The notes beneath the pieces were generated by a model. That model searched no databases. It worked only from the letters and a program-made list of their open reading frames with translations, and had not been told where the DNA came from. Below are positions 2,580 to 23,931 of a stretch of DNA of 40,054 nt, piece after piece; the first letter of the stretch is position 1, and the number at the start of each line of letters is the position of its first letter. A program made the position numbers and the translations under genes. Source of the stretch: Planctomycetaceae bacterium (GTDB lineage: Bacteria; Planctomycetota; Planctomycetia; Pirellulales; Pirellulaceae); contig WFWZ01000108.1 of NCBI GenBank assembly GCA_015490875.1, positions 1 to 40,054 on the forward strand, written 5' to 3'.

Positions 2580-3458
2580 TTACCAGATTTCGAGCTCAGG
2601 TTCCAGTTCGACTCCGGTCCGCTCCCGCACCTGAGTTCGCGCCAAATCCATCAGCCGTAATACATCGTCGCTGGTACACCCCGGGTGAGCGATCACAAAA
2701 TTGGGGTATAGGTCACTCAACTCGGCCCCACCGACACGCGTTCCCTTCAGCCCGGCTTCGTCCAGCAGTTCCCGCGCCTCCATGCCACCGCGGTCTTTGA
2801 AGAGCCTCGCGCATGACACATCGCCACCCGGCTGCCGAGCCCGCCGGACGATCCATTCCTTTTGCATGCGCCGAGTCACTTCGCGGGGGTCGTCTTCGTT
2901 GAGCGCGAATACGGCTTCCAAGATCACCAGCTCATCGAGCGTACTCTTGCGGTAGGAGAAATGCATTTCCTCTCGAGTCCGCACGAGAATCTCGCCCGCT
3001 CGCGTCATCACGGTCGCCTCAGCCGTCCACTGTCCAAGGTCAACGTTCTGTGTGCCCGCATTCCCGTGCAAGCCGCCTCCAACAGTCCCTGGAATGGCCA
3101 CGAGTGCCTCAAGTCCCGCCAAACCCTCTCGGGCCGCCGTCGAAATGACTTGCCCCAGTTTGGCTCCGCCCCCGACTCGAAGTCGGGTTCCATCGACCCG
3201 AATCTCCGAAAAGACGGCCGCCGTCAGCGCCAACGTGACGCCGGGCAAACCGGCATCGGGGATGAGCACGTTGGAGCCTCCTCCCAAGAGGCGAACCGGA
3301 ATATCCTCCGCACGGCAGCGCTGCACTAGCCGCTGCAGCTCGTCCGCCGTGGTGGGCTCGGCGAAATACTGAGCCGGGCCACCCAATCTCAGCCAATTCC
3401 AAGGCGCCAGCGGCTCGTCCTGCCGCAAAATGTGCTCCAATCCCTCTGTCCAAGCCAT
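2580..3458 (-). CDS. murB: UDP-N-acetylenolpyruvoylglucosamine reductase MurB
   Basis: MurB reduces UDP-GlcNAc-enolpyruvate to UDP-MurNAc with NADPH and FAD in cytoplasmic peptidoglycan precursor synthesis. Visible family motifs, numbering from the ATG at 3458: the FAD-binding GGGSNVL (59-65), the GTVGGGLHGNAG segment, the FSYRKS segment with the YRxS pattern, and a C-terminal LEPELEIW containing the conserved Glu. The 292-residue length suits the short MurB class. The frame stays open to 3626, but that would overlap the upstream nuclease gene and add a non-homologous arginine-rich leader; the ATG at 3458, with GGAGG about 13 bases upstream, fits the family N-terminus. The expected G-S-x-F-K catalytic-serine motif reads SCARLFKD, with Arg218 where Ser (or Cys) is usual. 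Followed by the FtsQ-like gene. Confidence 0.93.
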   Translation of the reverse strand: MAWTEGLEHILRQDEPLAPWNWLRLGGPAQYFAEPTTADELQRLVQRCRAEDIPVRLLGGGSNVLIPDAGLPGVTLALTAAVFSEIRVDGTRLRVGGGAKLGQVISTAAREGLAGLEALVAIPGTVGGGLHGNAGTQNVDLGQWTAEATVMTRAGEILVRTREEMHFSYRKSTLDELVILEAVFALNEDDPREVTRRMQKEWIVRRARQPGGDVSCARLFKDRGGMEARELLDEAGLKGTRVGGAELSDLYPNFVIAHPGCTSDDVLRLMDLARTQVRERTGVELEPELEIW

Positions 3459-3615
3459 CGTCGCTGGTTGGCCTCCAAGAAAAATGCTTACACGGATCCC
3501 GCGAGCCCATTCCGCGGCCGATCTTACCACAGCAGCCCTAGTGCGGGGAAGGAAGCCTTCTCGCCATGGCTTATAGGACGAACGCGAGTCCCCGAAGGGC
3601 GTCGGGACGGGGGCG

Positions 3616-4506
3616 CTACAGCCCACGCGAGCGGAGACGCTCCTGCAAGTCGTCGACCATCGATGACAGCTCGTCGCGAGGCAGTCCCCGTAGCGCTTCC
3701 TTCGACATTTCCTCCTCGCCCAGTAGCTGACGAAGCAGCACGATCTTGCCGATCAGCTCCCCCTCCTCTCTTCCCTCCTCTCTTCCCTCCCGTCGGGCAC
3801 CCTCTATCAGCCACTTGTAATCCCGTAGTGCCTTCTCGCGCTGATCGTACATGGTCCGATCCTCCGTCTTCCGCTGAATGGCTTTCGCCGCGTCAATGGC
3901 TCGTTCAAACGCCTCCCCAGGTAGCAACTCCCGCAGCCGACCCGTCTCGTACCGATGTGCATGGAGCAGAAAAAACGCCCACTGCTCGATCGCTGACGCC
4001 CGCGCAATCGTCGCCTCGTCCAGATTATACTTCGTCAACTCGACCGTGTGGACCTCCAGCGCCTCCGTCAGTACCCGACCCTCGTCAAGGTCCGCCAACC
4101 GAAACCGATGATGAGCCGTAGGGACACCTCCGAAAAGTACGTTCCCCAGAAAGCAAATCGAGATGGCCGGACGCAGCCGCCAGTACTTCTCGCCCTGTTT
4201 GAGTTGCTCGGTGTAGAGCGAACAGGCGTAATAGGCGAGCCGCTCTTTGAGGCCGACGGCGACGTCGACCTGCATTTCGATGTTGAGCCATCGTCCGGCC
4301 TCGTCGCGAGCTCGTATGTCGAGCACGATCAACTTCTGCTCAGCGAAGTCCTTGTAACTGAACGGATTGAGAATCTCGACCTCGACGATCTGCTCGTCGG
4401 GGGCTAGGACCGCGTTCGTAAGGCCCACCAGTGCGAGAGTGTTCTCCCTCGTACCGAAGATCTTTTTGAATGCGAAGTCGACTGTCGGCTTGATTCCCAG
4501 TACCAC
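3616..4506 (-). CDS. Rpn-family PD-(D/E)XK nuclease / putative transposase
   Basis: A 296-residue member of the recombination-promoting nuclease family (PDDEXK_2; often annotated as a putative transposase). The N-terminus PTVDFAFKKIFG is the family signature, and a catalytic-like set D63 ... E77-x-Q79 follows in the strands LIVLDIRARD and LNIEMQ. The central part carries the usual aromatic LAYYACSLYTEQLKQGE block. The C-terminus holds a GREEGREEGE stretch encoded by a short direct repeat (about 3762-3795), common in this family and prone to slippage. The start is GTG at 4506 with GAGGAG about 6 bases upstream. No inverted repeats or target duplications typical of an insertion sequence are evident, so this is probably a stand-alone nuclease gene rather than a mobile element. 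Biological role in this organism is unknown. Confidence 0.88.
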   Translation of the reverse strand: MVLGIKPTVDFAFKKIFGTRENTLALVGLTNAVLAPDEQIVEVEILNPFSYKDFAEQKLIVLDIRARDEAGRWLNIEMQVDVAVGLKERLAYYACSLYTEQLKQGEKYWRLRPAISICFLGNVLFGGVPTAHHRFRLADLDEGRVLTEALEVHTVELTKYNLDEATIARASAIEQWAFFLLHAHRYETGRLRELLPGEAFERAIDAAKAIQRKTEDRTMYDQREKALRDYKWLIEGARREGREEGREEGELIGKIVLLRQLLGEEEMSKEALRGLPRDELSSMVDDLQERLRSRGL

Positions 4507-9871: not shown

Positions 9872-12364
9872 TCACTTCTTGGATGGATTGGATGGACGAG
9901 GGTCCACGCGGAGTTTCAGCGGCATCGTGACGACAGCGAAATTGGTGTCCCTCGGCGCTGCCTCCTTTTTCGCTGACGCCACTTGAGCATCCGCCTGCTT
10001 CTTCAACGCCACGGCTTTCTTGTGACGCTCCTCCAGCGCGGCGACGCGCTTCGCTAGCTCGGATCGGTTAGCCTCCTCTTTCGCTTCCTTGAGTGCCTTG
10101 CGAGCCTCTTCCAACTCCTTGGACAACTGTTGCACCGCCGCCGCCAATCGTTTTTGCCTCGCCTCGGCCAATGCGAGAGCCTGCGGGTCGAATGGACGTT
10201 TCACTTTCGTCAGATCGCCACGCACCCAGAAAGTGTACGTGCCGGGACGGAGGTTGCCGTTCTTGAGAGACAGCGTGAGTTCCACGTCGCTCTTATTTTT
10301 GGCGATCGTCGCTCGGGCAACCGGAATCTCGCGAGGCAGCCCCATCACGGAAACGGCGACGGGATCTGCGAATCCCTCGGTGCGTTCGGCCTTGACTCGC
10401 AGTTTCACGTCGCTTCCCACTTGCCCGTGGACATCCGAGGGATCACCTCGCAAGACAACGGGCACGGCCACACCGTCGTCACGCACCTGCAAGAACCAGG
10501 AAGACGTCGGACGGACGCGAGCCGGATCGAACGGCTGGTTTCGCGTGCCCGTGGCGATCTCACCCAGCGTGACGGGATGCTCGACTCCATCGTTGCCGAC
10601 TCGACTCGTCGCCTTCAGCTGCACCGAGCTCAACGATGCAGGTGCATCATGTGTCGCCTGGAGTACGAGCCAGGCTTGAGTGCCACTCGACGTTTTCCAT
10701 GTCACCGGCTCAGCCTTGACGCCTTGGGGAAGTCCGAGTGCCTCGACTGTCACCTCGCGATCAAAACCTCCTCGTATTTCAGTCAATAGGCGAACGGCCA
10801 GCGATTCGCCTCGCCGAAGAACCAGTGGCCGTACGGGTACCGTGTTGTTGTTGGCAGTGCGCAGTTCTTGCGGCACCGCCACGATGCGACACTCCGGATG
10901 GGGCTCCCGGATGACCAGCCGATAGACAGCTCGAGGATCATTGCGTACTGAACCAAACTGATCGCGAAGCCACAGCCGATACGTTCCGTCGGCAGGAGCC
11001 GTCCAGAGCAATGCCGGATCGTCACTGCTCAGATGAAAGGGAGAACGGATGGTCGCGTTGCGGTCGGGAGGATCATCGACGAACGCGATATCGACGAGCC
11101 GCACATTACCCTTCGGATCCTTTTCCAATCGCTGCAGCAAGAAAGCCGGATCGGTATCCGCCCCCAAACGGTGACTGAGGACCTCGATCCAATACTGCTT
11201 CCCTTTCTGAGCTTCGAACTCATACTGGTCCTCGTCCCCTTCGGGATAAAATGATCCCGACACATCGCACGGCAAGTCCAATCGCTGAATTTGTACCTCA
11301 GACGATTCTGTTTCCACGACGACCGTTCCTTGTGCCACTCCGAGCGCCACGGTGCGCCCCGCAGGACTTGTGACAGCGAGTCCGGGAGCGCCGGAAACGA
11401 GGAGCGACGGGAACTGGGGAATCCAGGGACGCAGCAAGGCTACAGGCTCGCTCGCCGCCGAGGCCGACGAAGACGCGGCAACCAGCGTTCGACCCTGCCA
11501 GCGAAAGGGACTCGGTTTTCCCTGCGGCAAGTTCCATCCAAGCCACGTAAATGTCCGTTCCTCGTGGGGCGTTGCTGCTAAAGGCTTCACGGTGGCGACA
11601 AAGGGCTCCTCGTCGACCACCAATCGATAAAAATATTCTTCGCCGCCACCGTAGGTTTCATCGTGAAGGCGAATGAGGTAGTCGCCTTTCTTCGGGGCTT
11701 CGAAAAGCAACACTGGGTCACGTTCGACCGTGAACGCTTGAGCCAGTCGGCGCCCCGAGGTATCAAAGAGAGTGAGGACGGCGCTCAGACGCGAGTCGAT
11801 CTGTTGCGCAGCCAAGCGCACGGTGACGCGCTGGCCTTGCTCGAGATGCGTCTTGAAAAAGTGATGACTCCGTGCCGGAATTCGCCCATTGGCGACCGCT
11901 CCGATCGGCAGTTCGTACGCGTTTTCCGGTGTCACCGGGGTCCCCTTTACCACGAGTTCAGGGCGGTCCGATACCACAAAGGCTCGCGGATTGGAAATGC
12001 CCCACGCACCGATCGCTCGGACGTCGTAAGTACCGGGCGGCACATCCTTGGCAACGGTGACACGAAAATGGCCGTAACTCGGTTCGGGCGTGTCGGCGAA
12101 TTCGTCCGGAACTCTTCGGACGACTTCCGCGGTGATGCCGGAGTGAGAGAAGACCAGTTTCTCAAGCCGCCGGGCTGCCGGACCGCTCACCGTGACCTCC
12201 ACCGTCGAGCCTGCTTGTGCGCCGGGAGGAAAGACGGCATTAATCGTCGTGACGGGCAACTGGGCACTCAGAGGCAGAGGAACCCACAAGACGCACGCTG
12301 CCGCCAGCACCGACAGGATCGTTAGTGGTTGAACAAGAACTCTTTGGTGTTGATCACGGCCCAC
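9872..12364 (-). CDS. Secreted PPC-domain protein with C-terminal coiled coil
   Basis: An 830-residue predicted periplasmic or surface protein. A hydrophobic export segment (about 11-34) is followed by an IPT/TIG-like strand set (FPPGAQAGSTVEVTVSG), then bacterial pre-peptidase C-terminal (PPC) beta-sandwiches, recognisable by the HHFFKTHLEQGQRVTVRL and later DEDQYEFEAQKGKQYWIEV segments, further beta domains, and a C-terminal Lys/Glu/Ala coiled coil (about 725-805). No protease catalytic domain is visible. The start is GTG at 12364 with GAGG about 8 bases upstream; this overlaps the end of the DUF1549/DUF1553 gene by 43 bases. A shorter start inside the signal segment cannot be excluded. Its partner genes on both sides suggest it works with the exported cytochrome-like proteins. 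Confidence 0.82.
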   Translation of the reverse strand: MGRDQHQRVLVQPLTILSVLAAACVLWVPLPLSAQLPVTTINAVFPPGAQAGSTVEVTVSGPAARRLEKLVFSHSGITAEVVRRVPDEFADTPEPSYGHFRVTVAKDVPPGTYDVRAIGAWGISNPRAFVVSDRPELVVKGTPVTPENAYELPIGAVANGRIPARSHHFFKTHLEQGQRVTVRLAAQQIDSRLSAVLTLFDTSGRRLAQAFTVERDPVLLFEAPKKGDYLIRLHDETYGGGEEYFYRLVVDEEPFVATVKPLAATPHEERTFTWLGWNLPQGKPSPFRWQGRTLVAASSSASAASEPVALLRPWIPQFPSLLVSGAPGLAVTSPAGRTVALGVAQGTVVVETESSEVQIQRLDLPCDVSGSFYPEGDEDQYEFEAQKGKQYWIEVLSHRLGADTDPAFLLQRLEKDPKGNVRLVDIAFVDDPPDRNATIRSPFHLSSDDPALLWTAPADGTYRLWLRDQFGSVRNDPRAVYRLVIREPHPECRIVAVPQELRTANNNTVPVRPLVLRRGESLAVRLLTEIRGGFDREVTVEALGLPQGVKAEPVTWKTSSGTQAWLVLQATHDAPASLSSVQLKATSRVGNDGVEHPVTLGEIATGTRNQPFDPARVRPTSSWFLQVRDDGVAVPVVLRGDPSDVHGQVGSDVKLRVKAERTEGFADPVAVSVMGLPREIPVARATIAKNKSDVELTLSLKNGNLRPGTYTFWVRGDLTKVKRPFDPQALALAEARQKRLAAAVQQLSKELEEARKALKEAKEEANRSELAKRVAALEERHKKAVALKKQADAQVASAKKEAAPRDTNFAVVTMPLKLRVDPRPSNPSKK

Positions 12365-14832
12365 AGGATGTCCTCATACGCCTCTTGCTGGTTCTTTTTC
12401 GACTGGAGGTACTCAATGGCGGTTTTCATTTCTCGCTCCGTCGGATGCCGTGCGAACGCCGCCAGGTAGATCGTGCGAATGTTCTCCTCCGGGGTTGCCT
12501 TGGCTGCAGCAAGCTGGGCTGCACGCCCCTTCTTGAGTTTCGACTGGATCTCCGACGAATTGATCAAGTGCAATGTCTGCCCCAAATTGGCTTCCGACGA
12601 CCGTTCGCACTCACAGGCACTGGCTGCTTGAGGGCGTCCGAAAACCGTCAAGAAATACGATGGGAAGCCACTATCGGGCAATTGAACCGCTCGCGTTCCG
12701 ACTGGGACCGTCCCGAAGTTGGTCTGGTCTCCAGTGACCGCGTCGATCGCGTCCAACAACACTTCCGCGTGCAAGCGGCGAGGGTAGAACCTCGAGTAGT
12801 TCTGACGATCGTCGACGTTCCATTGATTGGGTTCGGCCGAAAGTTGGTAGGCTCGCGAATTGGCAATTGTGCGGATCAACCCCTTCAAGTCATAGCCGCT
12901 TTCGACAAATTGCCGCGCCAGCTTTTCCAATAGCTCCGGATGTGTCGCTGGATTCGTCACCCGCATGTCATCCTCCGGCTCAACGAGTCCTCGACCGAAG
13001 AAGTGTTTCCAATAGCGGTTGACCAGAGCCTTGGCAAAGAACGGATTGTCCGAAGCCGTCATCCAGTCGACCAGGGCGACGCGTGGATCCTGGTGAGGCT
13101 CGAGCTTGACGGGGGAAGCTCCCAAACCGGTCGGCAAGACGTCTTGTCCAGTCTTCGGATTGCGAGCCGAGGCTGTTCCCCGCTGGTGAAAGATGCGCTC
13201 TTCGTTGGCACGGCTTCCCGGCTTGCGTCCTACACGCGAGAAGAACGCCACGAGGCCGTAATAATCCTGCTGACTCCACGCTTCGAACGGATGGTGGTGG
13301 CACCGAGCACACTGGATGCGGAGCCCCAGGAACAATTGAGCGGTGTCTTCCACCTGAGAGGGCGCGTCACGCACCTGGCGATACCAGGCGACGGCAGGAT
13401 TTGTGCGCACTGTACCCGTTGCTGTCAGGATCGCGCGGACGAACTGATCGTACGGCATGTTGTCGGCCATGGCCGTCCGAATCCACTCGTGGAAGGCAAA
13501 GGTCTGGTAGCGGTCTTCGTCCCGGTTGCGTCGGTTGCGAAGAATGGCGGCCCACTTGGTTGCGAAGTAGTCGGCGTAGTCATCCGAGGCCAGGAGGGTT
13601 TCGATCCATTGCGAACGTTTCTCCGGATCGGTGCTAGCCAGGAAGGCTCGAGTCTCCTCGATCGTGGGCAATCGCCCGGCGATGTCGATTGTGACGCGGC
13701 GCAAGAAGGTGGCGTCGTCACAGAGTGGCGATGGAGGCAGTCCCAAAGCGCGGAGTTTGCCAAAGACTTCACGATCGATGACATTGTCGGTCGACGGGAG
13801 AACGACGTCGGCTGCGCCGAGCGGGATCGTGGCGCGAAAGACGCCTACGTGGCTCTGGTAACGAGCCATCACGGCGACACTGCCTGCCAATGTTCCGGTC
13901 GTGACCAATCCCGTCTCTGAAGTCGATGCCATTTCTGTGTCATTCGCTTCGAACTGAGCCATGCGAGTGACATCTTCGGTCGACCCGTCGCTGAAGTGAG
14001 CCACGACCGCGAGTTGCTGCGTAGCCTCCTTGGACAAAGTTCGCTCGGATGGGATGACCTCGATGCGCACGACGGTCGGAGCGTTGGGATCGCCGGTCGG
14101 CATCCCCTGTCCAATCCAGCGGCGCAGGAGTCGATAGGCAGGCGAATCGGGCTCGAGTCGCTGGCCGCCTCCGTGAGGCACCAAAGCGGCCGCCTTTAGC
14201 AAAAGGAGACTCCGGTCTGGGGCAGCCGGGAAGAGACGCCGGCCGCGGCCCTCTTTCACCAGCCATTCATAGTCATCGGCGGGCTCAAATCCCAGAAGCG
14301 ATAACCGAAAACCATTTTGGCCACCCGACTTGCCATGGCAACCTCCACCGTTACAGCCGTACTTGGTGAAGATCGGCACGACCTGGTTGGCGAAGTGGAC
14401 CGGGACTTCGGCGGTGCAATGTTCGACACGAACCTTCAGTTCGGCCTTGGGGCCGCCTTGAACTTCCGCCGTGATCGTCGCTTCACCATCGGCCAGCGGC
14501 TGAACGTAGCCGGTGGCGTCGACCGTGAGAATCCCGGCGGGCTCGGCGCGGTACGTCACCTTTCGGGTCCAGTCCCGGAGCGCCCCCGAGCGGTGACGGC
14601 CGGTGACGATTAGTTGTTGCCGGGCATCCCGGCCCACTAGCACCACCTCTGAGCGTCCCGTTTCGATTTCGAGAGCTATCAAGGGATCGGGATCAGGAGT
14701 CTCCTTGCGTGCCCGATCCGGTTCGGCGGCCGTGCCGCTGGCCGAGAGGAGGAGCACGAAGCCAAGAAGACCGCAACAACGGCCGAACCACGGAGACATC
14801 AGGGGAAACGTGGAGCGATAGTGGCGTGGCAT
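12322..14832 (-). CDS. DUF1549/DUF1553 (PSCyt2-PSD1) protein with BIG2 domain
   Basis: An 836-residue exported protein and first gene of the operon. After a signal peptide (hydrophobic FGRCCGLLGFVLLLSASG) come a bacterial Ig-like (BIG2) domain (about 30-135), a cytochrome-like segment with an unusual C160-NGGG-C165-H166 spacing, another Ig-like strand set, the DUF1549/PSCyt2 domain containing FLRRVTIDIAGRLPT and the C508-AR-C511-H512 heme-type motif, and the DUF1553/PSD1 domain with NPFFAKALVNRYWKHFFGRG. These proteins are a hallmark of Planctomycetota and related phyla and are mostly of unknown function. The ATG at 14832 was chosen because AAGGA lies 7-8 bases upstream; a GTG at 14889 has no such site. 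A sigma70-like promoter lies about 80 bases upstream. Confidence 0.92.
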   Translation of the reverse strand: MPRHYRSTFPLMSPWFGRCCGLLGFVLLLSASGTAAEPDRARKETPDPDPLIALEIETGRSEVVLVGRDARQQLIVTGRHRSGALRDWTRKVTYRAEPAGILTVDATGYVQPLADGEATITAEVQGGPKAELKVRVEHCTAEVPVHFANQVVPIFTKYGCNGGGCHGKSGGQNGFRLSLLGFEPADDYEWLVKEGRGRRLFPAAPDRSLLLLKAAALVPHGGGQRLEPDSPAYRLLRRWIGQGMPTGDPNAPTVVRIEVIPSERTLSKEATQQLAVVAHFSDGSTEDVTRMAQFEANDTEMASTSETGLVTTGTLAGSVAVMARYQSHVGVFRATIPLGAADVVLPSTDNVIDREVFGKLRALGLPPSPLCDDATFLRRVTIDIAGRLPTIEETRAFLASTDPEKRSQWIETLLASDDYADYFATKWAAILRNRRNRDEDRYQTFAFHEWIRTAMADNMPYDQFVRAILTATGTVRTNPAVAWYRQVRDAPSQVEDTAQLFLGLRIQCARCHHHPFEAWSQQDYYGLVAFFSRVGRKPGSRANEERIFHQRGTASARNPKTGQDVLPTGLGASPVKLEPHQDPRVALVDWMTASDNPFFAKALVNRYWKHFFGRGLVEPEDDMRVTNPATHPELLEKLARQFVESGYDLKGLIRTIANSRAYQLSAEPNQWNVDDRQNYSRFYPRRLHAEVLLDAIDAVTGDQTNFGTVPVGTRAVQLPDSGFPSYFLTVFGRPQAASACECERSSEANLGQTLHLINSSEIQSKLKKGRAAQLAAAKATPEENIRTIYLAAFARHPTEREMKTAIEYLQSKKNQQEAYEDILWAVINTKEFLFNH

Positions 14833-14909
14833 GGCGGATTCCTTTTCCAAGGCGGGACCCTCCGAGGGCGCAAAGGGGGCTGCCGGCACGGCGGCCGAAA
14901 CTTGAGCGA

Positions 14910-17253: not shown

Positions 17254-20200
17254 ATGAAGAAGTGGACACGAGCGAAGAGGCGGGACCGCAACCATCGCAA
17301 TCGGAGGCGGGGGGGACGAGCGGCCATGCGTCCGGAGCTTCTGGAAACGAGGAATCTCTTGTCGGCAGACTTGCTCCTGACGGTCGCGGACGGATGGGAC
17401 GGGGTGGTCAGTTCTGAGGACCCGACCCTCGTGACCGATCCGGTGGCCTCTCCGGCCGAAGGCGAGCACACGGCGGGGGATCATGATCTGGTTGCATTCG
17501 CCAAGGCGCTCGCGGATTCGGGCACGAAAATGTACGGGGCAGCCTGGTGTCCTGCCTGTACCGCGCAAAAGAAACTCTTTGAGGACGGGGCAGATTTTCT
17601 GCCGTTCATCGAGGTCACCAATCCCGACCGGACGCTCAATCAAATCGGTATCGACAACAACATTACCTCGTTCCCGACATGGGAGTTCCCGGACGGAACA
17701 CGTCTCACGGGCGTTCAGACGCTCGAGACGCTGTCTCAGCGCAGCGGCGTCGACATCCCGACGGGTGTCACGCCATCGATCGCTCCGATCGGTGACAAGA
17801 CCGTCTTCGGCGGATCGCCTCTGCATGTTGCCCTGGACGGATATGATCCCAACGGCGGCCCACTAACGTACACGGTGACCAGCTCGAATCCCTCCCTGGT
17901 TCAACCGACACTCATCACGGGCAACCGCAGCGCACGCATTTCGACGCTCAGCTACGGCGACATGGTGTTTCAGCTCTTCGAGCAGCGAGCGCCTCGGCCA
18001 GCGTCGCGGTTCATCCAGTTGGCCAACGACGGCTTCTACAACGGCATCGAGTTCCACCGAGTGATTGACAATTTTGTGGCACAGGCGGGGGACCCCACGG
18101 GCACGGGCGCGGGTGGCTCGACACTCGGTGATTTCGACGACCAATTCCATGTTGAATTGCAGCACAATCAGGCGGGCGTCTTATCATTCGCCAAAGCAAC
18201 CGACGATACGAATGACTCGCAGTTCTTCATTACGGATGTGCCGACTCGGTTCCTTGACGCCAACCACTCGGTCTTCGGCCAGCTCATCGAAGGCGAAAAG
18301 AACCGCGATGCCCTGACGGCGACCGCAACGGACTCGTCGGATCGACCACTCTTTAATATTCTGATTGACTCGGTGTCCATCTTCGAGGACACCGAAAACG
18401 GCCTCGTCATGTTGTCCGCGCCGGAAGGAGCGTCCGGTGAGGCGGACATTACGGTCACGGTCACCGACCAGGACGGCAACTCATCGCAGCAGGTCTTTCA
18501 TGTCACCGTCGCCCCCGATCCGTTCAACACGGGTCCATTCCTGGCGGACATCGGAGACATTCAGACGACCGTCAATACGCCGGCTCAGTTTCAACTCCAG
18601 GCGATCGACGTCGAAGGGGATCCGGTCCGATTCAGTGGCATCAGGCAGGGTACCGTCGACTACACGTTCACGGTTGATCCCGACACGGGAGAGGTGACGG
18701 TCACGCCGCCGGATGGATACGTCGGCCCGATGGAACTGCTCGTGCGTGTGGCTCCAGCGACGACAAGCAACACGGCCGATCCCTTCGATTCGCAACTCGT
18801 CACGATCAACGTCGTGCCTGCCGTCAACGGCGTCGTCGACCTGACCGATGCTTCGGACACGGGGATTTCGTCGACGGACAACATCACGAATGCCGATCCG
18901 CTTGAATTCCTCGTTTCCGGCGTCGAGGCCGGATCCACAGTGACCCTCTATAACGGCAGCACCGTATTGGGGACCGGGACGGCCAATAACGCCGGCGAGG
19001 TCGTCATTTCTACATCCGGCCTTGGTGCACAAGGTGACGGAACCTATGAGGTCTTCGCAACACAGACGGTCGATGACGTCGAGAGTGCCCCGTTTGGACA
19101 CCTCAACGTGACGATCGATACAACGCCGCCGGGGCCGTTCAATTCGACGCCGCCGTCGGTCGGGCAGGTCGCCACGCCGCTTCAATACGACGCCGACCAT
19201 CCGGATGAAGGCCTTGCCGGGTTCAGTTACGCGCTGCAAGGGGCACCGTCCGGCGTTGTCTTTGACCCGGTTAGTGGACTCCTCACGTGGACCCCCACGT
19301 CCTCGCAGGTAGGCACGCACACCTTCAATCTGATTGCGCGTGATGCGGCCGGGAATGAAAGAACGCAAGAAATATCGATCACCGTTTCCCCGCAGCAGGC
19401 GGATCAGCGCGTGAGCCTGCGACTGGGGGTGACGGACGCCGACGGCGTTCCACTGACCCAGTTGACAGCGGGGCAGGACTTCTTCCTGCGTGGTTTTGTC
19501 GAGGACAAGAACGATGAAGGCGTCTTCGCGGCCTACTTCGACATCAACTATCCGGCGAACCTCGCTGAGGTCACAGGGCCGATCACTTTCTCATCCGATT
19601 ATCCCCATGTCACCTCGGGCGACACGACGACCCCAGGGTTGATCGACGAAGTAGGAGCGACTTCGGGCTCGCTATCGCCGGTCGGTGGCGGCGAGTTCCT
19701 CATGTTCACCGTGCCTATGCGAGCAACCGGTACGGGAACACTGACGTTCACGTCGGACGCTCCCGATGACCTTCCCTTCCATGAAATCCTCGTCTTCGGG
19801 ACGACCGATCCGGTCGACCTGCAGTCGGATGTCTTCTACGGCTCGACTTCCGTATCGGTCGGCGGTGCCTTTACCACGGGGCCGGACTTGTTCAACGTCG
19901 ACGAGGACAGTCAGAACAACCAGTTCGACGTGCTGGTCAACGACACGTTCCTTCCGGGATTCACCGGCGTCCTCTCGATCGTCGATGTTTCCACGCCGTC
20001 GCAAGGTGGCACGGCTACCGTCATCAACGGTGGGGGCTCGATCAGCTACACGCCGGCTCCCGACTTCTTCGGCGAGGAAACCTTCCAATACACGGCGACC
20101 GATGGGACGGCTCAGGTTACCGGTGTCGTCACCGTCCAAGTGCAGCCGACCAACGACGACCCGACGGCCAATGACGATTCGTTTGCCGTGGTTGAGGACT

Positions 20201-21960
20201 CAAGCGAAAACCTGCTCGACGTTCTCCAAAACGATTCGATCGCCCCGGACACTGGCGAAACCCTAAAGATCCAAAGTGTGTCCAGCGGCGACCAAGGGGG
20301 CACGATCGAGATCGGGCCAACCGACGATCACATTCTCTATACCCCAGCAGCTAACTTCATCGGGACGGAGACCTTCACCTACACGATCAGTGACGGCAAC
20401 GGTGGTACGAGTTCGGCCACGGCGACGGTGACGGTTACACCGTTCAATGATCCTCCCGTGGCTCGCAACGATGTGTTTACCGTCGATGAAGACACAAGCG
20501 ACCACCTTTTCGATGTGTTGGCCAACGACGACACGGGACCAGACACCGACGAGACCATCAGCCTGACCGATGTCTTCACTCCCAGTCAGGGTGGCACGGC
20601 GGTGATCGAGAACGGCCAGATCCGCTACTCTCCGGCTCCCGACTTCTTCGGCAAGGAAGAGTTCGAATACGAGATTACCGACAGCAACGGAGCAACCGCA
20701 CGGGGCACCGTTGTTGTGACTGTCAACAACACGAACGATCCTCCGATTGCCAATCCTGATACATTGACCGTCGTGCGAGACGCGGCCGACCAGGTCCTGA
20801 ACGTTCTGGCCAACGACTCGCCCGGGGCCGATCCCCCGGAAACGCTCACGATCCTCTCCGCCTCGTCGCAACTGAACGGTGCTACTGTTTCCATCAGTGA
20901 CGATGGCCAGCGGATCCTCTATACACCGCCGGCCGGTTATACAGGCAACGATACGGTGACCTACCGGATCGCCGACCCCGCGGGTGAAGAAGCCGAAGGC
21001 ACAGCTACGGTCGAAGTCCTCGACTTTACACCAGGTTCGGTCCGCGGCGCCGTCTATTTCGACGTGAATAACGACGGCCAGTTCAACGAGTGGGAAAGCG
21101 CGATCGGCGGCGTCACCGTGACACTTGTGGGGACCGATTTCCGAGGCGAGACGGTCGAACGGACGAGTGTCACCGATGCGTCGGGAGCCTTCGCCTTTAC
21201 CGATCTGGCTCCGGGCAACTATGAACTCATCGAAGAGAGTCTCCCCGGTTTGCTCGATGGGCGTGAGACCGCGGGAACGTTGGGAGGCGACACGTCGCAG
21301 AACGACCGGATCAGCTTCGAGCTGACAGACGGAGCCCAGGCAACAGGTTACTGGTTCGGCGAGTGGGGTCGGCTTCCGCAATTCATCCAGTTGACCGACT
21401 TCCTCGCGTCCACACCACGGACGAGCATCCTCACCAGCTCCTCGCCGACGCCGACCAACGGCGAAGATGGATCGACGCCCCCGAACAGTCCGCTCCAGTG
21501 GTACTCGCTTCGGGGCGACTGGAACGATACCCAGTCGGCAGACTTGGCGTTTTCGTCGAGTCCGGATGGAGTCGACTTGAGCATCGCCGACGGCAACGAC
21601 AACGTGGAACAGACCACACTGGCGATGAACGATGCGCAACGCGTCCATCGACTCGGGGAAGAGCCAGGCAACCTCATGCTGCGGTTCACCGGGCCGCGCG
21701 ACTTCCTCAACTTTGCACCTCGGGCTATCGACGACGGTGCCGTTGACGATGGTGCCGGTGCCGCCGAAGGCGAATCGGTGATCGGCAGCTATACGCCCGC
21801 CGATCTTCCCGATGCCGTCGACGGCTGGATGGCCAGGATCGGCGAAGGGGAAGATGAGGGCCTCTTGGAACTCGACGATCCATCCGTGAGTTTCCACGAC
21901 GACAGTGGTGAGGCGTATGCACAAGCCGTCGACACGTTGCTCATGGATGGCGAACTGTAG
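17254..21960 (+). CDS. Giant secreted protein: thioredoxin-like, cyclophilin, cadherin-like repeats
   Basis: A 1568-residue secreted protein. The arginine-rich N-terminus leads to the planctomycete extracellular motif LLETRNLLSAD (about 28-38). Then come a thioredoxin-like domain with C99-PA-C102 in GAAWCPACTAQKKLF, a complete cyclophilin-type peptidyl-prolyl isomerase domain (about 228-375; FHRVIDNF with Arg267, AQAGDPTGTG, SQFFITD, HSVFGQ), Ig/cadherin-like domains (about 380-710), a cohesin-like domain (about 715-870), four tandem VCBS/cadherin-like repeats (about 880-1258; recurring DVLxND, GGTA and YTPAxxFxGxExFxYxxxD), and a SdrD-B-like domain (about 1259-1370; GAVYFDVNNDGQFNEWE, a Ca-binding-like loop). 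The acidic C-terminal 200 residues are unassigned. Likely surface adhesin or matrix protein with folding and redox functions. The weak ribosome site AGAAAGAGG lies about 12 bases before the ATG. Confidence 0.9.
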   Translation: MKKWTRAKRRDRNHRNRRRGGRAAMRPELLETRNLLSADLLLTVADGWDGVVSSEDPTLVTDPVASPAEGEHTAGDHDLVAFAKALADSGTKMYGAAWCPACTAQKKLFEDGADFLPFIEVTNPDRTLNQIGIDNNITSFPTWEFPDGTRLTGVQTLETLSQRSGVDIPTGVTPSIAPIGDKTVFGGSPLHVALDGYDPNGGPLTYTVTSSNPSLVQPTLITGNRSARISTLSYGDMVFQLFEQRAPRPASRFIQLANDGFYNGIEFHRVIDNFVAQAGDPTGTGAGGSTLGDFDDQFHVELQHNQAGVLSFAKATDDTNDSQFFITDVPTRFLDANHSVFGQLIEGEKNRDALTATATDSSDRPLFNILIDSVSIFEDTENGLVMLSAPEGASGEADITVTVTDQDGNSSQQVFHVTVAPDPFNTGPFLADIGDIQTTVNTPAQFQLQAIDVEGDPVRFSGIRQGTVDYTFTVDPDTGEVTVTPPDGYVGPMELLVRVAPATTSNTADPFDSQLVTINVVPAVNGVVDLTDASDTGISSTDNITNADPLEFLVSGVEAGSTVTLYNGSTVLGTGTANNAGEVVISTSGLGAQGDGTYEVFATQTVDDVESAPFGHLNVTIDTTPPGPFNSTPPSVGQVATPLQYDADHPDEGLAGFSYALQGAPSGVVFDPVSGLLTWTPTSSQVGTHTFNLIARDAAGNERTQEISITVSPQQADQRVSLRLGVTDADGVPLTQLTAGQDFFLRGFVEDKNDEGVFAAYFDINYPANLAEVTGPITFSSDYPHVTSGDTTTPGLIDEVGATSGSLSPVGGGEFLMFTVPMRATGTGTLTFTSDAPDDLPFHEILVFGTTDPVDLQSDVFYGSTSVSVGGAFTTGPDLFNVDEDSQNNQFDVLVNDTFLPGFTGVLSIVDVSTPSQGGTATVINGGGSISYTPAPDFFGEETFQYTATDGTAQVTGVVTVQVQPTNDDPTANDDSFAVVEDSSENLLDVLQNDSIAPDTGETLKIQSVSSGDQGGTIEIGPTDDHILYTPAANFIGTETFTYTISDGNGGTSSATATVTVTPFNDPPVARNDVFTVDEDTSDHLFDVLANDDTGPDTDETISLTDVFTPSQGGTAVIENGQIRYSPAPDFFGKEEFEYEITDSNGATARGTVVVTVNNTNDPPIANPDTLTVVRDAADQVLNVLANDSPGADPPETLTILSASSQLNGATVSISDDGQRILYTPPAGYTGNDTVTYRIADPAGEEAEGTATVEVLDFTPGSVRGAVYFDVNNDGQFNEWESAIGGVTVTLVGTDFRGETVERTSVTDASGAFAFTDLAPGNYELIEESLPGLLDGRETAGTLGGDTSQNDRISFELTDGAQATGYWFGEWGRLPQFIQLTDFLASTPRTSILTSSSPTPTNGEDGSTPPNSPLQWYSLRGDWNDTQSADLAFSSSPDGVDLSIADGNDNVEQTTLAMNDAQRVHRLGEEPGNLMLRFTGPRDFLNFAPRAIDDGAVDDGAGAAEGESVIGSYTPADLPDAVDGWMARIGEGEDEGLLELDDPSVSFHDDSGEAYAQAVDTLLMDGEL

Positions 21961-21988: not shown

Positions 21989-23344
21989 TTAGAACTCCGC
22001 GTGCAATCCTACCGTCAACCCGTGCAAGAACAGACTTCCGGACTGGAACGAGAACGCGGGACGGGATTCACCCACGATCGGTCCAGGCACCTGCGTCAAG
22101 TTGAGAACCCGGTCGATCTGTTCGCCGGGGCGGACCACTTTCGAGTAGTAGATAAAGTTGTAGCCGGCTGAGATGGCAAGGTGGTCGCTAAGGTACCAGC
22201 GAGCACGGATGGCGAGTTCGGGAACGGCGGCGAACTCATTTTGGACGTACGTCCCAATGTTGGAAGGCTGCGTGAGGAAGCCTGAGTCGACCGTCGTGGC
22301 GGCGCCTGCCGGTGGCGTGGTCGTCGTCTGGCCGCGAATCGTCACTTCCTCACGCATGTTCCCCAGTCCGACGGAAGCCCGTACCGACAACGCCCCGGTA
22401 CCTCGGTCGTACTCCCAGATCGCTCCGACGACACCCGCGTGGTACTGATTTCGCGTCCCGAAGTAGTCCTCGACCGCCACTCGCGTCCCCACCGGGACGT
22501 TGCCTCCCGGGTCGGTCGACGTCAGTTCGTCGCGGATTCGCAGCGACTCGTCGATCCTCGCCGTCTGGTAGCCGCCGATCAGGTCAAGCCTCCAGCAGTT
22601 CCCTTGGGTCAGCATCATGCGGAGAACCACATCGCCCGCAGCGAAGTCGGATCGAGCGTCCACATCGACCCATCCGGTCGAAATGCCCGGATAGCCGACC
22701 AGACGTGCGTCTTCTGCTGAAGTCGAGATGTTGAAGAAGGGCCGGCCGAGGATCGCATAGTCGTCGGTCGAATAACGGTAACTTGCGTGGTCGTCCTTGA
22801 GCGAGAAAAAGCGGACGACGGCACCGTTGACCTGATAAGGATCGAACCATGTGCCCACCGATACACGGCCACCCGTCCGATTTGCGTCCGTGATCTTGTG
22901 GTTCCCCAAGAGTACCGTCGTCGTCGGCAGCCCGAGCACGCCTGCGTTGGCTTGAGGTGTTCCGGCGTCACTGGTTGTTACGAGCGCCGGAATGTCCTGT
23001 CCTCGCCGCCACCAGAAAAGAGCCTCAAAGTCCGCATACCACCCACCACAGGCCAAACCCCATCCTGGACCGTAGATCGGCCCTGGGGGATAAGGCTCCT
23101 CCCAAATCTCTGGCGAATCCCAGTGGGAGGGAGGGTGTTCTGACAGTATCCCGGAACCCCTTGGCGCAGGGGGCACCGGTTGCGAAGGAGGAGCCGGGGA
23201 CGGGGAAGTGCTCTGGGGCTGATCGCCCTCGGATGAGTTTGCCTTCTTCCACTCGCCTCCGTACGCTGCGGTGGCCAGCCACCCTGTGAGAGCCAACACT
23301 ATGGAACCAACTCCGACCCGCCACCTGTGAATTGCCATCGTCAT
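21989..23344 (-). CDS. BBP7-family outer-membrane beta-barrel protein
   Basis: A 451-residue protein with a signal peptide (IHRWRVGVGSIVLALTGWLA), a proline/serine-rich linker (about 45-75), and then a beta-barrel-like region starting with the BBP7 signature ADFEALFWWRRGQDIPALVTTS. Alternating amphipathic strands, RVSVGTWFD, VDVDARSDFAAGDVVLR, WRLDLIGGYQTARID, end in LFLHGLTVGLHAEF, with the C-terminal aromatic residue typical of outer-membrane barrels. BBP7 proteins are numerous in planctomycetes; function is unknown but porin-like placement is inferred. The ATG at 23344 has AAGGA 5 bases upstream; the frame continues open to 23743 but that part overlaps the VanZ gene in another frame. It is convergent with the giant secreted protein, 28 bases apart. 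Confidence 0.88.
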   Translation of the reverse strand: MTMAIHRWRVGVGSIVLALTGWLATAAYGGEWKKANSSEGDQPQSTSPSPAPPSQPVPPAPRGSGILSEHPPSHWDSPEIWEEPYPPGPIYGPGWGLACGGWYADFEALFWWRRGQDIPALVTTSDAGTPQANAGVLGLPTTTVLLGNHKITDANRTGGRVSVGTWFDPYQVNGAVVRFFSLKDDHASYRYSTDDYAILGRPFFNISTSAEDARLVGYPGISTGWVDVDARSDFAAGDVVLRMMLTQGNCWRLDLIGGYQTARIDESLRIRDELTSTDPGGNVPVGTRVAVEDYFGTRNQYHAGVVGAIWEYDRGTGALSVRASVGLGNMREEVTIRGQTTTTPPAGAATTVDSGFLTQPSNIGTYVQNEFAAVPELAIRARWYLSDHLAISAGYNFIYYSKVVRPGEQIDRVLNLTQVPGPIVGESRPAFSFQSGSLFLHGLTVGLHAEF

Positions 23345-23454
23345 TGCGTCCTTGCTGCGCGGTTCTCCCAGTGGCGGCACACCGGTCTTACCAGCCGCCC
23401 TGTCACAGCTTTTTTCGGACGGAGCGGGGATAACGGTTGAGGAAACTTTAGCGA

Positions 23455-23931
23455 TTAGGACGGGGTTTCCGGTGCTGGTGGCTGAGCCGCCGGTCGTCCG
23501 GCTGTTCGACGGAGCACCCAAAGAATCGTGACCATGGCCATGACCGTTCCAGATCCGGCTCCCACGACGTCCGCGACCCAGTCCCAAACGTCGGGAACGC
23601 GAGTCGGAACCAATCCCTGAAGCCACTCGTCCAGCGCACCGTAGGTCGCTGCGACCCCCATCACAGCCCACGGGCGGAGCCGCCCCGCGCAGACCCACCA
23701 ACTCCAAACGAGTAGAAAAGCTAGGCCCGCAAACGCGACGCAATGATCGAGCTTGTCATGGGTGGCAGACGGAGAAGGCTCAGCGGAGACACTCGGAACG
23801 TGAGTGGCCACCGCCAGCACGCCCCAGTAGACGACGAGCGCCGCCAAAACCACACCGCGGAACCACGTAGGAAAACTGGGAGCGGTATCGGTTGACTGAC
23901 CAGGGCGGTCACACCGAGAAAGGAACGGCAT
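23455..23931 (-). CDS. VanZ-like membrane protein
   Basis: A 158-residue integral membrane protein with about four transmembrane helices and the VanZ signature YGALDEWLQGLVPTR followed by DVWDWVADVVGAGSG, where the conserved acidic residues sit in the last helix pair. VanZ-like proteins are widespread; the founding member affects teicoplanin resistance, but most relatives have no known role, so resistance should not be inferred. The ATG at 23931 is preceded by GGAGAAAG at about 11 bases; a longer frame to 24411 would add a non-homologous leader. It ends 110 bases before the BBP7 gene on the same strand and is divergent from the giant cytochrome gene across about 260 bases. Confidence 0.85.
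   Translation of the reverse strand: MPFLSRCDRPGQSTDTAPSFPTWFRGVVLAALVVYWGVLAVATHVPSVSAEPSPSATHDKLDHCVAFAGLAFLLVWSWWVCAGRLRPWAVMGVAATYGALDEWLQGLVPTRVPDVWDWVADVVGAGSGTVMAMVTILWVLRRTAGRPAAQPPAPETPS

Follow-up and report, generated by a model that had tools for sequence, protein, structure and literature searches.

A single open frame of a Planctomycetaceae bacterium (assembly GCA_015490875.1) encodes a protein in which a thioredoxin-like domain and a cyclophilin share the N-terminal part of a long, repeat-bearing chain. The best explanation, in which we place about even confidence, is a surface-displayed two-enzyme foldase that combines a thiol oxidoreductase with a prolyl isomerase and acts in trans. 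Here, the window is the whole stretch of DNA that was analyzed, that is, positions 1 to 40,054 of contig WFWZ01000108.1 on the forward strand (40,054 nt), and the window protein is the product of the open reading frame (ORF) 17254-21960. The domains themselves are known; their combination was not found described, and the open-access literature yielded nothing relevant on a thioredoxin-cyclophilin fusion in planctomycetes. The gene and its parts are the following.

17254..21960, + strand: whole gene, Trx-Ig(Cyp)-repeat surface protein (open frame, 1568 aa; homologous frames in dozens of genomes)
17254..17370, + strand: N-terminal export-type region, residues 1-39, a basic stretch and then ELLETRNLLSA (sequence)
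17485..17757, + strand: thioredoxin-like (Trx) domain of the VKOR-Trx type, residues 78-168 (PDB sequence, profile, and predicted structure)
17548..17559, + strand: CPAC active-site motif, C99-C102 (sequence)
17674..17676, + strand: predicted cis-proline P141 (SFPTW) of the thioredoxin fold (P in 113 of 113 rows)
17761..17931, + strand: first half of an Ig-like domain, residues 170-226 (joined halves match He_PIG)
17932..18384, + strand: cyclophilin (Cyp), residues 227-377, between the Ig-like halves (PF00160, fold match, and catalytic residues)
18388..18516, + strand: second half of the Ig-like domain, residues 379-421 (joined halves match He_PIG; model)
18832..19389, + strand: Big_13 and He_PIG Ig-like domains, residues 527-712 (Pfam)
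19399..19863, + strand: putative cohesin-like region, residues 716-870 (conserved in homologues)
19876..21021, + strand: tandem Big_9/Cadherin_5 repeats, residues 875-1256 (Pfam)
21049..21255, + strand: SdrD_B-like domain, residues 1266-1334 (PF17210, E value of 3.8e-11)

The sequence-only reading had proposed a CPAC thioredoxin-like domain near residue 99, and the motif does occupy residues 99-102 of a domain whose fold is borne out by PDB sequence searches and predicted structure. As a single sequence, this domain matched the thioredoxin-like domain of Synechococcus VKOR (3kp8/3kp9) with an E value of 5e-11, and a profile of 16 homologues reached 6e-17 to 3kp8, the next non-VKOR chain being at 9e-7. 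The domain was predicted and searched separately, as the fold search of the whole model gave a list full of cyclophilins. AlphaFold2 predicted a thioredoxin fold around C99/C102, with a pLDDT of 96.2 for the domain alone; the six best Foldseek matches of this model were all VKOR entries, and VIA-align gave a Z score of 15.3 to 3kp8, while the best-scoring chain outside VKOR reached 8.1. The full-length Pfam scan did not call the domain and returned for the N-terminal segment only a sub-threshold Thioredoxin_2. The profile, AlphaFold2, Foldseek, and VIA-align results therefore contradict the view that there is no thioredoxin fold here, and by sequence and model the domain is a thioredoxin fold of, specifically, the VKOR-fused subfamily.

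The likeness to the VKOR thioredoxin domain (3kp8/3kp9) extends across the full domain (39% identity, rmsd of 1.4) and includes the YGAxWCPxCxxQKxLF and ITSYPTW motifs, with their CxxC and cis-Pro, both of which the window protein has (CPAC and SFPTW). In contrast, Pfam found no VKOR membrane domain on the window protein chain, and the thioredoxin domain is fused instead to the Ig-like, cyclophilin, and repeat domains; hence, the domain is of the VKOR-Trx type, yet the protein is not a VKOR. The extra cysteines of 3kp8 and of the Patescibacteria homologues are likewise absent. Indeed, C99 and C102 are the sole cysteines of the 1568 residues, so self-oxidation is impossible and any redox activity could fall only on partners. 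The earlier proposal of a protein that folds or oxidizes itself or its partners consequently loses the part in which it oxidizes itself.

A complete cyclophilin with FHR, AQAGD, and QFFIT motifs had also been claimed, and PF00160 indeed matches residues 229-374 with an E value of 2.4e-37, with the FHR, F..Q.GD, and SQFFIT motifs intact. The highest VIA Z score for this part was 25.8, to 2fu0. Compared with cyclophilin prolyl isomerases (PPIases; PF00160), it shares the fold and R55, F60, Q63, A101, Q111, F113, L122, and H126 (CypA numbering), the catalytic R55, F60, Q63, Q111, F113, and H126 among them, and differs in having K for CypA N102, in its insertion in an Ig-like domain, and in its N-terminal thioredoxin partner. 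When joined, the flanks of the cyclophilin cover He_PIG from position 2 to position 96, its last (E value of 1.4e-5, over the curated cut-off), whereas the first half alone gives no match and the second half alone a partial one; the cyclophilin thus most likely sits inserted within an Ig-like domain. Other planctomycete surface proteins that contain an Ig-embedded cyclophilin (e.g., L068-L073) are 45 to 61% identical to it over the Ig and cyclophilin part but have no thioredoxin domain upstream. Since these relatives keep the embedded cyclophilin, their sequences suggest that the thioredoxin domain was added to, or lost from, a pre-existing Ig-cyclophilin unit. A different stretch lies upstream in L068-L073, in several of them HVIRMFVNG..NTEFENYV-like.

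Modeled together, the thioredoxin, Ig-like, and cyclophilin domains gave a pLDDT of 93.4 and a pTM of 0.90. Such a high pTM suggests packed domains that may be able to couple, and the chain has exactly one vicinal cysteine pair and no others, as would suit a redox switch or sensor in which external oxidants close an internal CxxC disulfide and the three domains change shape or bind ligands differently as a result, with no processing of substrates. We consider such a switch improbable, given that VKOR-Trx, the subfamily matched, is a catalytic one and that there is no sign of a sensor output domain.

The source assembly is a draft of 429 contigs, and an assembly or frame artefact could in principle have fused two genes. 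This explanation can be practically discarded, because the order and spacing of the thioredoxin domain and cyclophilin recur in complete genomes and isolates. The open frame of 1568 residues at 17254-21960 holds, and the architecture recurs at 46 to 69% identity in dozens of genomes, well beyond what chance would give; the domain order is kept in relatives, contrary to what an artefact would give. Among 117 related genomes, the thioredoxin-cyclophilin stretch was found at this identity in ~40, nearly all of the source organism's family. A collection-wide scan covered 84,980 species genomes and gave 309 matching stretches; of the best 80, which were analyzed, 69 were Trx-Ig-Cyp fusions with near-constant spacing between the thioredoxin domain and the cyclophilin. 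The same order is thereby found in other planctomycetes: 68 of the fusions are labeled planctomycete (Rhodopirellula baltica, R. europaea, and Stieleria among them), and the remaining fusion, L087, is labeled only "bacterium." The nonfusions among the best 80 of 309 were one planctomycete contig end (L137) and ten short thioredoxin proteins, mostly from Patescibacteria. Several short proteins of 126 to 280 aa (L139, L143, L145, L147, L148, L150, L152, and L153), mostly Patescibacteria, have a VKOR-type thioredoxin domain with extra conserved cysteines. Across 392 genomes of the phylum, the protein turned up in only one additional group, a genus that belongs to the same class but to a different family.

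Active-site conservation was followed in a deduplicated alignment of 113 rows, 102 of them fused to the cyclophilin and 11 unfused. The thioredoxin cis-Pro is kept in every row, including those without CxxC. Of the 102 fused rows, 82 retain CxxC, 19 have other residues at both cysteine positions, and a single row has lost one of the two, the replacements being mostly D..T; nearly all homologues have no mature cysteine beyond this pair. The row with a single active-site cysteine (WSPAC) is a paralogue in Rhodopirellula sp. JC639 (L126, ~6001). CxxC is absent in all nine genomes found of the other-family genus. A tree built without the CxxC columns needs seven label changes, six of them forced by strongly supported branches, and parsimony rooted on CxxC counts eight losses; the alignment therefore indicates about eight independent losses, nearly always of both cysteines together. 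On the cyclophilin side, R55, F60, Q63, A101, and Q111 are kept in 82 of 82 CxxC rows; the W121 position is variable in the family, and N102 is K. R55 or Q63 has been lost in 7 of the 19 rows without CxxC, namely, L135 and six rows of the extra genus, so that PPIase decay among the fused rows is restricted to lineages without CxxC. Fisher's test on the rows, which are not independent, gave a P value of 3e-6; if the decay is instead treated as two events that both fall on the CxxC-less part of the tree, ~20% of its length, the chance probability is ~0.04. With these two independent events, the order of loss, redox first and isomerase later, is suggestive of a coupled function.

In several lineages the fold has outlasted the CxxC pair, which indicates that the protein does not need redox chemistry everywhere. 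The 19 homologues without CxxC, including those of all nine genomes of the other genus, retain the thioredoxin fold and the cis-Pro, and the remainder of the chain consists of adhesin-like repeats, all of which fits a binding module in which both folds were recruited to an adhesin for peptide or protein recognition rather than turnover, much like the thioredoxin-like domain of ERp29, which is redox inactive. Because the lineages without CxxC persist, we keep substantial weight on this alternative, which nonetheless appears rather unlikely: CxxC is present in 82 of the 102 fused rows, usually as the sole mature cysteines, and is lost pairwise, and the invariance of the PPIase catalytic residues in the CxxC rows is hard to explain without catalysis. 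Under the foldase reading, the lineages without CxxC are perhaps redox-dead, binding-only forms.

The window protein had been described as secreted, and apparently it is exported or extracellular. Its LExRxLL N-terminal motif, present in most homologues, agrees with this, as do the PF07595 (Planc_extracel) matches of the R. europaea homologue (L131; 30.1 bits, over the cut-off) and of L120 and L125; the N terminus of the window protein itself fell below the PF07595 threshold in the Pfam scan. Downstream of the cyclophilin, Pfam places Big_13 at residues 527-623 and He_PIG at 640-712. The label "cohesin-like" for residues ~716-870 is plausible from sequence comparisons: the region of 1 of 11 homologues matched Cohesin (PF00963; E value of 4.4e-8), and that of the window protein had no direct Pfam match and no credible match to PDB sequences. 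The cadherin/VCBS-like repeats and the SdrD-B-like domain that had been read beyond it correspond to Pfam Big_9/Cadherin_5 over residues ~875-1256 and to SdrD_B at 1266-1334. Planctomycetes bacterium TBK1r has a second thioredoxin-cyclophilin protein of 823 aa (L125, 5758-8226) ending in a type I dockerin (E value of 1.1e-11); this short paralogue is dockerin tipped, in contrast to the long homologues with the cohesin-like region. That the two might dock through a cohesin-dockerin pair is a testable idea, nothing more.

No conserved gene neighbor supplying a redox partner was found across the homologous loci; the neighbors vary, the commonest being an HU-like gene and a frame of unassigned identity on the opposite strand, and a conserved operon partner was rejected. 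In the window, a BBP7 beta-barrel porin gene (21989-23743, - strand) is convergent with the thioredoxin-cyclophilin gene; of the 89 distinct homologous loci, 6 have BBP7 nearby. Farther away, the 3' end of a PD-(D/E)XK nuclease family transposase frame (3616-4506, - strand) overlaps a MurB-like frame (2580-3626, - strand) at its start, and a PSCyt2/PSD1 planctomycete protein (12322-14889, - strand) is followed by frame 9872-12364, with a weak PPC-domain match. VKOR as an obligatory partner was not supported either, as the source genome has one sub-cut-off match, which is not credible, and 9 of the 19 CxxC-bearing genomes tested have no match over the cut-off.

The source genome does contain two DsbD_TM genes, which might feed electrons to an external disulfide reductase, for example by a DsbD-type route, opening disulfides in foreign proteins or in the cell's own wall. 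We judge a reductase unlikely, since a surface protein would be distant from an inner-membrane donor and since VKOR-type thioredoxin domains have been reported as DsbA-like and described as oxidases (PMC3842002). As for clients of the foldase, the YTV cysteine-rich proteins described in planctomycete walls (PMC8567305) are possible candidates. All but one of the 117 relatives (116) have them, as does the genus without CxxC; being nearly universal, they are uninformative as a co-occurring substrate and give no co-occurrence support.

In the foldase reading, a VKOR-fused, DsbA-like thioredoxin domain and a cyclophilin would be held in fixed geometry by the Ig-like domain, forming an N-terminal head on a stalk of cohesin-like and cadherin-like repeats. 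The CxxC pair would exchange disulfides, and the cyclophilin would isomerize prolyl bonds, in other exported or cell wall proteins and not in their own chain. The VKOR-Trx identity and the near-constant Trx-to-Cyp spacing in the 69 loci among the best 80 of 309 support this reading; the lack of a conserved redox-partner neighbor, the patchy VKOR, the ~8 lineages without CxxC, K at N102, and the variable W121 position count against it. A more specific version, which we put forward only tentatively, is a rigid single-head foldase whose two sites would share clients such as the cysteine-rich planctomycete wall proteins and whose redox half was repeatedly lost before the isomerase decayed. A comparable pairing of a thiol-disulfide catalyst with a cyclophilin on one folding scaffold is that of ERp57 and cyclophilin B, both recruited by the calnexin P-domain (PMC7687155); unlike here, these are separate eukaryotic endoplasmic reticulum proteins, and the assembly is not homologous. 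A VKOR-type thioredoxin domain also works with an immunophilin PPIase in LTO1, where it oxidizes FKBP13 (PMC3842002); in that system the PPIase itself receives the disulfide, whereas the cyclophilin described here is cysteine free.

Extracellular, ATP-free protein folding is poorly understood in bacteria, and the planctomycete wall is protein rich and contains cysteine-rich proteins. The conservation of the thioredoxin-cyclophilin pair in dozens of related genomes points to a putative extracellular folding-catalyst module. A conserved pairing of thiol-disulfide and prolyl-isomerase domains on one chain would provide a small, expressible unit for asking whether folding catalysts act at the cell surface, and the natural redox-dead homologues would be ready-made controls for such tests.
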